Below, one piece after another: positions 43,588 to 48,628 of a stretch of DNA of 64,000 nucleotides. The stretch is from an uncultured Pseudomonadota bacterium (GTDB taxonomy: Bacteria; Pseudomonadota; Gammaproteobacteria; Burkholderiales; Thiobacillaceae): assembly GCA_903835655.1 (NCBI GenBank), contig CAILNT010000037.1, forward strand, positions 1 to 64,000. Reading direction: 5' to 3'. Made by a program: the position numbers and the translations under genes. Position 1 is the stretch's first letter. Every line of letters starts with the position of its first letter. The notes under the pieces are model-generated. The model saw nothing but the letters and a program-made list of their open reading frames with translations, did not search any database and had not been told where the DNA came from.

Positions 43588-45960
43588 TTACTTCGCGGTG
43601 ATGCTGACGGGTACGGTCGCTTGCGCGGTCAGTTTGGCCGAGTCGACTACCGAGACCTTGAGACTGTAGCTCCCCAGAACCGGATTGGCCCAGTAGGCGA
43701 TGATGTTCATCCCGCTGACGGAGAACGTCATGCCCAGGGGCGCGCCGGAAATCGTGACGGACAGCGAGCTTGCACTGGCATCCGCCAGTCCGATCGTTCC
43801 ACTGACCGACTTGCCGACCACGCCCGTCATGGCCGAACTCGTGATGACCGGTCCCGCCACGGCAATCTTGAAGGTGTAGATGCCCTGGCTGGAGAGGCCA
43901 GTCTTGGTATCCTTGACGATCACGGTCACGGCATAGCTGCCCAGGACCGGTTTGGGCCAGCTGATCACACCGCTCGTGCCGATGCTCATTCCCGAGGGCG
44001 CGCCGCCCAGGGTGTAGGTGACGGGATTGGCGTTGCTGACCGCGACCGTATAAGTCAGGGCCACGCCGGGTTGACCACTGACGGTCGCGGAGCCAACGAC
44101 TGGCGGCGGCGGCGCGGCGATCGTGACGGTGTAGAGGCCCTGGCCGCTCAACCCGGTCTTGGCGTCGTAGGCGGTCACCTTGACCGAGTAGGTGCCTGCC
44201 ACGGGGGTCGTCCAGTTGACGATGCCGGCACTGCTGATGCTCATGCCGGAAGGCGCGCCAGCCAGGCTGTACGTCACCGGATTGGCATTGGTAACGGAAA
44301 CCGTGAATGACAGCGCCGTGCCGGCCGTACCGCCGATGCTGGCGGAGGTCACCACGGGGGCGGTGGCGGCCACTGCGACACCCGAAAGGGTGCCAAGGAG
44401 GCTGCTGACGTTGGGGGTACCCAGTCCTGTGGGCTGGTCATAGCCCCCCCTGGCGGAACAGGTGGCGCACGTACCGTCCGATCCCTTGGAGATATCGGCA
44501 AACTCGGCGGCGTAGTTGCCGGCCACGCTGGCGATCTGCCCATACAAGGCGGCGTGCACCTCGCCCAGAGCCGCCTTGGCTACGACGGCGCGCTGCGCGT
44601 TGGCCACGGCGATGATGCCGGCCCATTGGGGCGTGGACAGGCTGGTGCCGCCGACGCTATACCAACCCGCCGTGGTGCTTCCCGGCGTGATGACGGCCAG
44701 ATACTGGCCCGTGCTGGGGTCCGCATTGAAAGCCACGTCGGCCACGGAACGGTGTGCGACGCTGCCCATGCCGGGCACTGCGCTGTTCTGGTAGCCGGGT
44801 GTGGCCGTGTACTGGCTGATGCCGCCGCCCGTGCCCGACCAAACCACTTCCGAGCGCGTCGTTCCGGAATACGTGAGGCTGGTGCCGCTCACCGCCACCA
44901 CATTGCTGGAGACTGCCGGCCATTCGACGCCGGCGCCGGCATCGCCGGTCGCCGCCAGGTAGGTCATGTTGGCATGCGTAAAGTACGCATCCACCGAGGC
45001 GGTCCAGTTTCCTTCCGTCGCCCCAAAACTCATCGAGACGACGCCGGCCCCCATGGAATTGGCCAATTGAACTGCGCCGGTGAGGTTGGCGACCGATGCG
45101 CTCGGCGCTTCGATCAGGACGATGCGTGCCAGAGGCGCGGTCGCATGCGCCCACTGGACATCCAGCGCAATCTCCGTCGCCCAGCCCGAGTCGTAGGCCG
45201 GAGCGGTTCCGCTCATCGCTCCACTGGCGGTGCTGTAGACGACGGAAAACTGGCAACTATTGCCTGAGGCCGCCGCCAGGGGCAGGCTGGCATTCGTGGC
45301 GATCGCCGTGGTCGTACAGGCGGGCAACCCGAACTTCGTGTTGAAAGCGGCCAGCTCGGCGGCGATATTCGGGTCATGCAGCGCATCGACGATGTAGATC
45401 GTCTGCCCCGCGCCCAACTGCGCGGCTTGCGCCGCGGTGAGCGTCGTCCCGGTGGAGGGCAGGGCAGGCATGCTGTAGGCCGCGCGGATCTGGGCCGGCG
45501 TGTAGGTCGCGACGATGCCGCTGGAAGCCATCGGCGCCACGGTACCCGAGGCCGACAGGCCCTGATTCAGAAACTGCGTATGCCGTGCATGCAAGGACTG
45601 GGGTGTCAGGCGGCGGGTAGACATGCCGGCGAACTCGGCGGGAATCTGCTGACTGTGGGGATGTTGCCTGGCCGAGGTATCGCTATAGTCGCGATCGCTA
45701 TCGGCGGGCTCGGCCAGCGTCGCCGGAGCCAGGTGAAACGAAGGCTGGGCCACCTGGGCCGCGACGTCATCGGGCACACCGACCGCGTCCAGTTGCAGGG
45801 TGGTCGCACCGGTCGCGAGCGAATTGACGCTGGGCTGGCCACTGTCCGCCACACCCCCCACGCTCCCGCCACCACACCCGCTCAACAAGGTCGCCGCGCA
45901 CAACAGCAAGCCGCCAACGGGGACCGGGGCGAGCCCGGGTGTCTTCACAGAAAATTCCAT
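43588..45960 (-). CDS. Secreted S53 (sedolisin-type) peptidase-like lipoprotein with Ig-like repeats
   Basis: 790 residues. The lipoprotein signal ends LLLCAATLLSGC. After a propeptide-like region, the S53 domain shows the acidic pair of the catalytic triad in GWATEIALDVQWAHA (near residue 260), the oxyanion-type Asp in TGDAGAGVEWP and the nucleophile in GGTSLSTPQWAG (near residue 440). From about 535, three repeats of ~85 residues, each containing a GAPxGMxxS segment, form putative Ig-like domains. It probably cleaves or binds an extracellular target at the cell surface. The ATG at 45960 is the likely start. A c-di-GMP riboswitch lies in its leader. Confidence 0.9.
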   Translation of the reverse strand: MEFSVKTPGLAPVPVGGLLLCAATLLSGCGGGSVGGVADSGQPSVNSLATGATTLQLDAVGVPDDVAAQVAQPSFHLAPATLAEPADSDRDYSDTSARQHPHSQQIPAEFAGMSTRRLTPQSLHARHTQFLNQGLSASGTVAPMASSGIVATYTPAQIRAAYSMPALPSTGTTLTAAQAAQLGAGQTIYIVDALHDPNIAAELAAFNTKFGLPACTTTAIATNASLPLAAASGNSCQFSVVYSTASGAMSGTAPAYDSGWATEIALDVQWAHATAPLARIVLIEAPSASVANLTGAVQLANSMGAGVVSMSFGATEGNWTASVDAYFTHANMTYLAATGDAGAGVEWPAVSSNVVAVSGTSLTYSGTTRSEVVWSGTGGGISQYTATPGYQNSAVPGMGSVAHRSVADVAFNADPSTGQYLAVITPGSTTAGWYSVGGTSLSTPQWAGIIAVANAQRAVVAKAALGEVHAALYGQIASVAGNYAAEFADISKGSDGTCATCSARGGYDQPTGLGTPNVSSLLGTLSGVAVAATAPVVTSASIGGTAGTALSFTVSVTNANPVTYSLAGAPSGMSISSAGIVNWTTPVAGTYSVKVTAYDAKTGLSGQGLYTVTIAAPPPPVVGSATVSGQPGVALTYTVAVSNANPVTYTLGGAPSGMSIGTSGVISWPKPVLGSYAVTVIVKDTKTGLSSQGIYTFKIAVAGPVITSSAMTGVVGKSVSGTIGLADASASSLSVTISGAPLGMTFSVSGMNIIAYWANPVLGSYSLKVSVVDSAKLTAQATVPVSITAK

Positions 45961-46027
45961 GGTTGTCACGCTCCAAAATGGGCGAGAGCCACGCTCAGAC
46001 GACGCTCGCTGTTGCACTACCGCGCGA

Positions 46028-46113
46028 ACCATCGGCAACCCCGCCGCCGTAGCGCTCATGCGCGGTAGGCCGGTGATTTTGCGTCCCCGTCTTTCGACGA
46101 GTTTGCCCTCTGA
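46028..46113 (-). promoter_or_regulatory. Class I cyclic-di-GMP (GEMM-I) riboswitch
   Basis: Minus-strand leader of the sedolisin gene. It contains, in order, GAGGGCAAACTCGTCGAAAG (first arm with GAAA tetraloop), ACGGGGACGCAAAATCACCG (ligand-binding junction), GGCCTACC...GCTACGG (second arm) and CGGGGTTGCCGATGG (closing strand). These match the Vc2-type GEMM consensus closely, including the GNRA tetraloop and the GGACGCAAA core. The aptamer ends about 68 bases before the ATG. A possible expression-platform hairpin (GCGAG...CTCGC, then ATTTT) follows, so control could be by termination; whether c-di-GMP turns the gene on or off is unclear. Confidence 0.93.
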
Positions 46114-46258
46114 ATCAACTACATATACCCCGCCGCTGGCGGGAACCCTGCCCCATAACATTTCTGGCGGGCAGCTCCACGAACTGGGCGCAAGGCCAGC
46201 ACATTCCTTGTGGCGATTATGTTGATTTTATATGTTTACCTATTTTTACAGCGCAAGT
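46114..46258 (-). other. AT-rich leader/promoter region of riboswitch transcript
   Basis: Holds no gene. On the minus strand TTGCGC and TATAAA are 18 bases apart just beyond the parC stop, a weak sigma-70 promoter candidate for the riboswitch transcript. A perfect small hairpin CCCGCC-GCT-GGCGGG lies near 46129-46143. Confidence 0.4.
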
Positions 46259-48628
46259 TTAGGCCAGCTTCTCCACCTGCACGATCCGCTCCAGCGGCTG
46301 GCCCTTGCGGGCGCGGTGCAGGCGATGCCTCCCCAGGGCTTCGCCGCCGAGTGTCACGCTGGCGGAACGGCCGAGGCGGGTCTTGCCTTCCACGACCAGG
46401 CGCTGGCCATCGAAGGTGGTGAGCGCCACGATGCGGGCTTCACCCTCCAGCTTCATCAACTGCACGCCCTTGCCGGCGGAGAGGGACCTCATCTCCTCCA
46501 AGGGGAAGGCGAGTAGATGTCCGTTGTCCGCGGCCACGGCCACCCAGGCGCCGTTGAGGCGCACCGGGGGCAGAGGCTGCCAGCCGGCTTCCAGGGTGAG
46601 GAAGGCCCGGCCGGTGCGCTGCTTCGAAATCAGATCGGCGAGCTGGCAGAGAAAACCGTAACCGCCGTCACTGGCGATCAGCCAGCGACTGTCCGAGGCG
46701 GCGGAGAGGGCGTAAAGCAGGCGTTCGCCGCGGGGGAGATCGGCCAGGGTGGCCAGCGGCACACCGTCTCCGCGACCGGTGGGCAGATCGGGGATGCGCA
46801 GGGCGTAGCTGCGCCCGCAGGAGTCGAGCAGGAGCAGCGGCCAGGTGCTGCGGGTCTCCAGGACAGCCAGCGGGCCGTCGCCGGCTTTGTACTGGATCGT
46901 CGCCGCATCCAGGCCGTGGCCAACCCGTGCGCGCAGCCAACCGTTCTTCGAGACGATGACAGTCATGGGTTCATCGACGATGGCATCCTCCGTGTTGGCT
47001 GCGGTGACGGCGGCGGCGGCCTCGATCAGGGTACGGCGCGCATCGCCGTATTTCTTCGCATCGGCACGAATCTCGCCGATCACCAGGCGCTTGAGCTCAT
47101 CCGCGTCCCCCAGCAAGCGCAGCAGGCCGTCCCTTTCCTCGCGCAGCTCGGAGAGCTCCTTTTCGATCTTGATGCCTTCCAGGCGGGCCAACTGGCGCAG
47201 GCGGATTTCCAGGATGTCATCGGCCTGGATCTCGGAGAGGCCGAAGGCGGCCATGAGATCGGCTCTGGGGTCGTCCGCCTCGCGAATGACGCGGATGACG
47301 GCGTCGATGTTGAGCAAGACCGCCTGACGGCCTTCCAGGATATGGATGCGGCGATCCACCGCGTCGAGGCGGTGGGCCGTGCGCCGGCGCACGGTGTCGA
47401 CGCGGAAGCTGGCCCACTCCTGGATCAGCGCCACCAGCCCCTTCTGGCCGGGGCGGCCATCCCGCCCGACCACGGTGAGGTTCATCGGCGCGGTGGTTTC
47501 CAGGCTGGTCTGAGCCAGCAACAGGCGCATGAAACTGTCCGGGTCCTGGTTGCGCGATTGCGGCTCCAGGACGATGCGTACAGGCGCTTTTTCGTCGGAT
47601 TCGTCGCGCGCAGCCTCCAGTGCGGCGAGCAAGGCCGCCTTCAGGGTCTTCTGTTCCTGCGTGAGTTCCTTCCTGCCCGTCTTGATCTGCGGGTTGCTGA
47701 GGGCGTCGATCTGGGTCAGCACCTGGGCGGTGGACACCCCCGGCGGCAATTCCGTGACCACGACCCGCCACTGTCCGCGCGCCAGCGGCTCGACCCCCCA
47801 GCGCGCGCGCACGCGCAGGCTGCCGCGCCCGCCCTCGTAGGCGGCCTGGATGTCGGCCGGGCCGGAGATGATCTGACCGCCACCGGGGAAATCCGGGCCG
47901 GGCACGAGCTTGAGCAGGTCGGCGAGCAATTCCGGCGTGGCGGCATCGGGGTGCTGCAACACGTGCACGGCGGCCGCGGCCAGCTCGGTCAGGTTGTGTG
48001 ACGGGATTTCCGTGGCCATGCCCACGGCGATGCCGGAAGCGCCATTGGCCAGCAGCATGGGCAGGCGCGCCGGCAGCAGGACCGGCTCCTTGAAGGCGCC
48101 GTCGTAATTGGGCTTGAAGTCGACGGTGCCGGCGTCGATTTCGGAAAGCAGCAGTTCGGCGTAGGGCGTGAGCCGGCTTTCCGTGTAGCGCATGGCCGCG
48201 GCGCCATCGCCGTCGCGCGAGCCGAAATTGCCCTGGCCGTCGATCAGCGGATAGCGCAAGGTGAAGCCTTGCGCCATGCGCACCATGGCGTCATAGACGG
48301 ATTGATCGCCGTGCGGGTGCAACTTGCCGATGACGTCGCCCACCACGCGCGCCGATTTGACGTGCCGGGTTGCTGCGGTCAGGCCCATCTCGCGCATGGA
48401 ATAGAGGATGCGCCGCTGCACTGGCTTCATGCCGTCTTCCACGGAGGGCAGCGCCCGGCCCAGAACCACGCTCATGGCGTAGGACAGGTAGCAACGCTCG
48501 GCGAAGTCGGAGAGGGGCAGATAGTCTTTTCCCGACACCTCGTCCGAAGCCGGGGGAAGCAGCGGTGGTTCGCCCTTATCGGCTGGCGCGAACAAGTCGA
48601 GCGTGAGGGAATCGTCGTGCTGTGTCAT
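46259..48628 (-). CDS. parC: DNA topoisomerase IV subunit A
   Basis: 789 residues. The N-terminal breakage-reunion domain has [46 protein letters not shown] and the catalytic tyrosine in [12 protein letters not shown] long coiled-coil-containing tower region and a C-terminal beta-pinwheel follow. QVEKLA ends the protein. The sequence favours ParC over GyrA by length and by the neighbouring parE. It decatenates daughter chromosomes with ParE. It starts 18 bases after the small zinc-ribbon gene. Confidence 0.96.

Follow-up and report, generated by a model that had tools for sequence, protein, structure and literature searches.

The S53 lipoprotein gene and its leader

On the minus strand of the window, the 64,000-nucleotide stretch of DNA analysed here, lies a gene for a sedolisin-like lipoprotein that is preceded by a complete class I c-di-GMP (GEMM-I) aptamer (Table 1). 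The upstream gene, which ends at 46259 on the same strand, we take to be parC-like, whilst the gene that the lipoprotein gene faces is presumably aspS-like: given these neighbours, the lipoprotein gene is probably a single-gene unit.

Table 1. Features of the lipoprotein gene and its leader, in window positions.
Feature	Position	Strand	Basis
S53 sedolisin-like lipoprotein gene, 790 aa	43588..45960, stop codon included	-	translation; PDB profile search
Three Ig-like repeats, residues ~533-790	43591..44364	-	He_PIG in 25/37 members; beta-sandwich repeats in AlphaFold2 model, pLDDT ~80-90
S53 catalytic region, residues ~150-530: E263, D267, D340, S440	44371..45513	-	alignment, PDB profile search
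Lipobox cysteine codon (Cys29)	45874..45876	-	invariant in 37/37 homologues
Candidate hairpin over Shine-Dalgarno and start codon	45958..45992	-	78.1% of cells paired; predicted in leader fold
Shine-Dalgarno GGAG	45971..45974	-	sequence; conserved in leaders
Platform switching strand GCUCUC (GCCCUC in most relatives)	45984..45989	-	pairs 12-18 x 163-169 of alignment A5
c-di-GMP class I (GEMM-I) aptamer, complete	46031..46117	-	RF01051, 78.6 bits, E 8.8e-14
Aptamer 5' strand GAGGGC; base 46107 = equivalent of Vc2 G20	46105..46110	-	complementary to platform strand in most homologous leaders; contact residues from PMC4744006

By sequence criteria the gene product is an S53 (sedolisin/kumamolisin-type) peptidase: the four catalytic residues, amongst them the oxyanion aspartate D340, are invariant in 37/37 aligned homologues, a PDB search with the profile of these 37 homologues retrieved kumamolisin-As (E 1.5e-28) and sedolisin (E ~1e-17), with the single protein giving TPP1 (E 3.6e-10), and the E..LD, GD.G and GGTS blocks are in register with kumamolisin-As. 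The lipobox LSGC, as read from the sequence, comprises residues 26–29, ending in the invariant cysteine. An earlier note on this DNA had described a secreted sedolisin-type lipoprotein with Ig-like repeats, of which the lipoprotein character and the protease type are both upheld; the repeats are found at the level of the family, where He_PIG (Ig-like) matches at E≤0.01, but the window protein itself gave no Pfam match at this threshold (best match Big_9, E 0.012). The peptidase part was left unnamed by Pfam and NCBIfam searches, and Pfam returned no match to Peptidase_C93 (LapG) in the window protein. The AlphaFold2 model has a mean pLDDT of 65, with good values confined to the repeats and some of the core and poor ones in the catalytic core; the best 50 listed Foldseek matches were to Ig/cadherin-like or other repeats alone. 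That the protein is a non-catalytic surface protein, in which the S53 fold serves adhesion, appears highly improbable: the Ig-like repeats make up about one third of it, but E263, D267, D340 and S440 are retained in every homologue and align with kumamolisin-As.

In an Rfam scan of the whole window, RF01051 (c-di-GMP-I) was the sole match above gathering score, covering model positions 1–87 of 87 with 78.6 bits, where the cut-off of the covariance model is 35 bits. The GEMM-I aptamer that the earlier note had recognised, and for which it proposed a covariance search, is therefore confirmed at full length; the spacing of 68 bases to the ATG given there is correct when counted from the end of the last landmark, but becomes 70 nt when counted from the last aptamer base to the ATG at 45960. 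A look for other GEMM copies, also proposed there, found no second class I aptamer in the genome to which the window belongs (3.67 Mb searched). Across the leader set described below, 98.2% of the aptamer pair cells are paired, in an alignment fitted to that structure, and 83 cells are changed on both sides, which 0/500 shuffles matched. Since the same genome contains 37 GGDEF matches, the ligand is very likely made in the host. Judged from its sequence, the leader RNA belongs to the class I c-di-GMP riboswitches and would bind c-di-GMP.

Conservation of the pairing between aptamer and protease

Of 121 related genomes, 83 have class I aptamers and five have an S53 protein, these five being four genus members and the distant relative G069. 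The aptamer lies directly upstream of the S53 gene in 4/4 genus members with the gene; none was found at the second S53 copy of G005 (L045, L046) or in G069 (L035, L048). Loci L045 (G005:C372) and L046 (G005:C102) hold pieces of this second lipoprotein copy and adjoin another lipoprotein-like ORF. For more distant relatives, contigs of named genomes were scanned with a three-sequence alignment, the best 80 of 151 loci being used, and aptamers were sought with a model built from 30 aptamers: the aptamer is present just upstream and on the same strand in 66/80 of these homologous betaproteobacterial loci, and one of the 14 loci without it (L087) sits on a contig that starts 146 nt before the protein match. 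A chance match or a lone oddity is ruled out by this count together with the 78.6-bit match in the window.

Because the 80 loci were ranked by similarity to aptamer-bearing genus members, an even sample of the order was also taken. Amongst its 399 genomes 16 showed any match and five matched the S53 region at ≥49% identity, with the aptamer in four of these five (window, L142, L143 and L144, with L142 and L144 probably duplicating the records L070 and L104) and absent in L145. The homologue at L145 (G158:C7; 49% identity, one internal TGA) is perhaps a decaying copy. At six more distant S53 loci (L146, L147, L148, L150, L151 and L035/L048) no aptamer was found. On a tree of 74 proteins, for which ORFs were parsed at 72/80 loci with eight loci omitted and which has the cut L087 as one of its aptamer-less rows, the aptamer label needs 4 changes compared with 13.0 in shuffles, and at least three of these four are forced by well supported branches. 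The aptamer-less proteins fall into clusters, one of Duganella with some Rugamonas and related strains and one of Paraburkholderia with Ideonella. Several aptamer-less S53 genes (L072, L076, L078, L082, L084) have a common short motif like GTGCGATAATTTCCGTGTGGATAC near the ATG, which may be a promoter that outlasted the aptamer.

The 29 genomes behind the loci include 20 with a switched S53 gene. In 15 of these 20, all three Janthinobacterium genomes searched (G133, G135, G141) included, no class I aptamer besides that of the S53 gene was found, the match positions having been compared manually with those of the loci; the other five have 2–4 aptamers. The nine genomes whose S53 gene is without an aptamer comprise eight with no class I aptamer found anywhere and one with a single match elsewhere. 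Clustering of flanking ORFs showed little conservation of the neighbouring genes above the level of the genus. The idea of a conserved operon, or of a conserved neighbouring gene that might encode the substrate, was rejected: the flanking-ORF clusters are common to at most 12 loci, the large ones lie almost wholly within Janthinobacterium and some are probably wrong-frame ORFs.

A strand with two exclusive partners

The leader set comprised 70 sequences (66 loci together with the window, G005, G002 and G008), with L129 and L043 (G002) sharing one leader and probably representing one genome counted twice. Most of these leaders carry the strand CGUGGCCCUCGCC some 25–40 nt upstream of the start codon, and by complementarity this strand has two mutually exclusive partners: the Shine-Dalgarno (SD)/AUG region or the aptamer 5' strand GAGGGC. 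After six leaders with other platforms (L075, L139, L080, L124, L081, L118) had been left out of the alignment, the alternative helix of (C)GAGGGC with the platform had 90.0% of its cells paired, compared with 32.4–55.1% when slid (63 distinct rows of 64), and five pairs and eight cells changed on both sides, with 2 and 0 of 500 shuffles as high. Three independent compensated changes can be recognised by eye: the Rugamonas leaders L089 and L119 pair CGAAGGC with GCCUUCG, G008 pairs CGAGAGC with GCUCUCG and L077 pairs CCUGGGC with GCCCGGG. Within the genus of the window, one position of the helix is G-C in G005, G-U in the window and A-U in G008.

A Watson-Crick 6-mer complement within 100 nt is present in 46/70 leaders but only in 1/28 aptamers of other genes, figures that become 58/70 and 6/28 when two G-U pairs are allowed. 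Permutation of the platforms among the leaders gave a mean of 44.2 compared with 53 observed (0/5000 as high), and a mean of 2.0 compared with 5 observed amongst the 19 leaders with a 6-mer other than GAGGGC (179/5000 as high), where these permutations, as well as the shuffles, treat related sequences as independent. For the second partner, the SD/AUG hairpin, the proportion of paired cells given in Table 1 drops to 25.1–49.4% when the helix is slid, and 16 cells are changed on both sides (24/500 shuffles as high); its covariation is modest, since slid versions reach similar counts.

The CGUGGCCCUCGCC strand could also be the site of a protein or small RNA, with its match to the aptamer incidental, and it is indeed more conserved than a simple hairpin needs, GGCCCUCGCCC being identical in many leaders. 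We nevertheless consider this very unlikely: where the strand changes, the change is matched in the aptamer 5' strand (GAAGGC/GCCUUC in L089 and L119, GAGAGC/GCUCUC in G008, CUGGGC/GCCCGG in L077), and none of the 5000 platform permutations reached the observed count.

Two other possible switching pairs gave way to the one with the 5' strand, which covaries: the aptamer 3' strand GCGGGG with CCCUCGC and a 9-bp helix of the window's own. The latter, formed by CUACCGCGC with GCGCGGUAG in the region 46070–46010 of the minus strand, disrupts the aptamer in the minimum-energy fold and is absent in the G008 leader. The Curvibacter aptamers at L080, L081 and L124 form a divergent type (AAAGGCACAC), whose leader is longer (129 nt) and has a complementary strand of its own, TGTGCCT; L080 and L124, which lie outside the standard group, show AGGCACA/UGUGCCU pairing. 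Janthinobacterium leaders (L095, L102, L108, L109 and others) contain a further ATG in frame, 33 nt upstream of the assigned start, which could extend the protein by MWPSPNSESFA and overlaps the switching strand.

Proposed direction and level of control

As the strand has two exclusive partners, the SD/AUG region or the aptamer 5' strand, a translational OFF switch is predicted. In the state free of ligand, the aptamer 5' strand GAGGGC, which contains base 20, would pair with the platform GCCCUC/GCUCUC and keep it off the ribosome-binding site, so that the protease would be translated. Binding of c-di-GMP would hold base 20 and its neighbours in the aptamer and release the platform strand, which would then fold over GGAG and AUG and stop translation. 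From the family evidence, we consider it likely, with a probability of about 0.7, that the riboswitch is a translational OFF switch on a lipid-anchored S53 protease.

Energy calculations on the leader set point in the same direction. With the aptamer forced, opening of SD and AUG is dearer than in the free ensemble in 60/70 leaders (mean 1.7 kcal/mol). For forced folds of the alternative helix, the leaders with a 6-bp partner were kept (55 of 70), and opening cost 7.8 kcal/mol with the aptamer compared with 3.7 with the alternative helix, being higher with the aptamer in 52/55; part of this difference is built in, because the platform strand is already taken up in the alternative helix. Shuffling of the flanks gave a difference of 1.7 compared with 4.1 for the real leaders, the real value being larger in 43/55, or in 36/40 without close relatives. 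The window leader is a weak example: its forced-fold difference is 1.3 kcal/mol compared with 0.9 for its own shuffles, its alternative helix contains one G-U and, with the aptamer, the SD by itself opens slightly more easily (3.4 compared with 4.0).

Control could instead be exerted on transcription or RNA decay, through the access of Rho or RNase, and not on the initiation of translation. Masking at the translational level frequently entails Rho action or decay as well, and some members of the family have other platforms: in Curvibacter sp. HBC61 (L075:3769-3800) the same gene is preceded by a different platform, with a terminator-like hairpin and T run right after the aptamer, and as a result transcriptional control may operate in some family members. 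In the leader of the window no terminator-like site was found, however, and SD and AUG are a pairing partner of the conserved strand, so that we consider this alternative unlikely. The opposite sign, an ON switch in which c-di-GMP would expose the ribosome-binding site and the protease would serve biofilm growth, is less probable still and in our opinion quite unlikely: both ON and OFF switches are known amongst class I c-di-GMP riboswitches according to PMC6366702, and the window-alone energies are nearly equal between the two states, but the higher cost of opening SD and AUG with the aptamer, in 60/70 leaders against the free ensemble and 52/55 against the alternative helix, argues against it.

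The predicted OFF switch implies that the protease is made at low c-di-GMP. Protease output when c-di-GMP falls would fit a role in freeing or reshaping proteins of the surface or matrix on biofilm exit, a hypothesis that lends itself to testing in cultured bacteria from soil and water, Janthinobacterium for example.

The ligand-contact base within the alternative helix

The contact residues G20, A47 and C92 of Vc2 are given as the equivalents of G12, A39 and C104 of Vc1 in PMC4744006. With contacts at 20 and 47 in Vc2, the spacing between G20 and A47 is 27 nt. By hand mapping, we take A47 of the window to be the first A after GACGC, at aptamer position 38, with which the presence of the interhelical C three bases before it agrees. 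From this position and the spacing of 27 it follows that base 20 of the window is aptamer position 11, at 46107. The bases found there, G at 46107 and A at 46080 (positions 20 and 47 by the published spacing), are of the c-di-GMP type, which has G at position 20, A20 favouring cGAMP.

Base 46107 is the fourth letter of the aptamer 5' strand, and since base 20 sits inside GAGGGC, the alternative helix would bury the very base that reads the ligand; being a switching base as well, it would oblige ligand choice and switching to evolve together. The aptamer of genus member G008 (L044:284-370; G008:C414) has an A, the cGAMP-type base, at the position equivalent to Vc2 G20, and its platform has a compensating U opposite A20, by which the alternative helix is kept. 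A class I aptamer on a different gene (L017:1501-1586, G042) also has A at the G20 position (ACTAGCAAAC). The structure of a G20A class I aptamer with 3',3'-cGAMP bound is reported in PMC6274999. It is conceivable, though doubtful, that the G008 copy answers 3',3'-cGAMP (or both ligands) whilst still switching the protease, and that the module acts as a dispersal circuit of a single gene, with no other class I RNA target of cyclic dinucleotides in many Burkholderiales.

Comparison with known systems

The view of the earlier note that a sedolisin-type protease is a non-standard target agrees with the open-licence literature searched, in which we found no report of an S53 peptidase as riboswitch target; the sole match joining c-di-GMP, riboswitch and sedolisin appears to concern bacteriocin export. 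A biofilm messenger would here be tied directly to a class of surface protease unreported under such control in the literature searched. Class I OFF switches and protease targets both have precedents, in Vc2/tfoY and zmpI/PPEP-1, so that each element is known; what we did not find described are the enzyme class of the target, the breadth of conservation and the switching strand. The latter offers a natural set of compensatory variants for class I translational control, one of them with an altered ligand-contact base.

Vc2 of Vibrio cholerae tfoY is described as a class I translational OFF switch (PMC7371385, PMC9262584). The system described here has a class I c-di-GMP aptamer too, with translational OFF control as a prediction, and differs in its target, a protease rather than a regulator of motility and T6SS. 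The competition between 5' strand and platform may or may not be the same in Vc2; the title of Inuzuka et al. 2018 reportedly speaks of a distant ribosome-binding site being masked.

The nearest precedent, absent from the earlier note, is zmpI/PPEP-1 of C. difficile, an adhesin-cleaving protease reported to be under the class I riboswitch Cdi-1-12, an OFF switch in which elevated c-di-GMP triggers transcription termination, with the adhesin substrates under opposite class II ON switches (PMC6366702, PMC6200980). A class I c-di-GMP riboswitch that lowers the output of a secreted protease is common to both (here as a prediction), the zmpI protease freeing surface adhesins. PPEP-1, however, is a zinc metalloprotease from a Firmicute regulated through transcription termination, whereas the present protein is a serine-carboxyl peptidase under predicted translational control. 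Compared with kumamolisin, sedolisin and TPP1 (MEROPS S53), it has the catalytic residues and a profile match over the catalytic region, but is a lipoprotein with C-terminal Ig-like repeats and a peptidase part that has no Pfam match.

In the LapG/LapD system, protease output is expected at low c-di-GMP and LapG is controlled at the protein level. The same output logic is predicted here for an enzyme of another class than LapG (Peptidase_C93), with control acting on the RNA. The earlier note had proposed a LapG-like release by another enzyme class: the predicted OFF switch has the direction that this needs, but a simple replacement of LapG by the S53 protease was rejected, since C93 (LapG-type) matches are present in 14/24 genomes with a switched S53 gene, compared with 0/9 without the switch. 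The S53 protease thus does not simply stand in for LapG, and the two systems often coexist.
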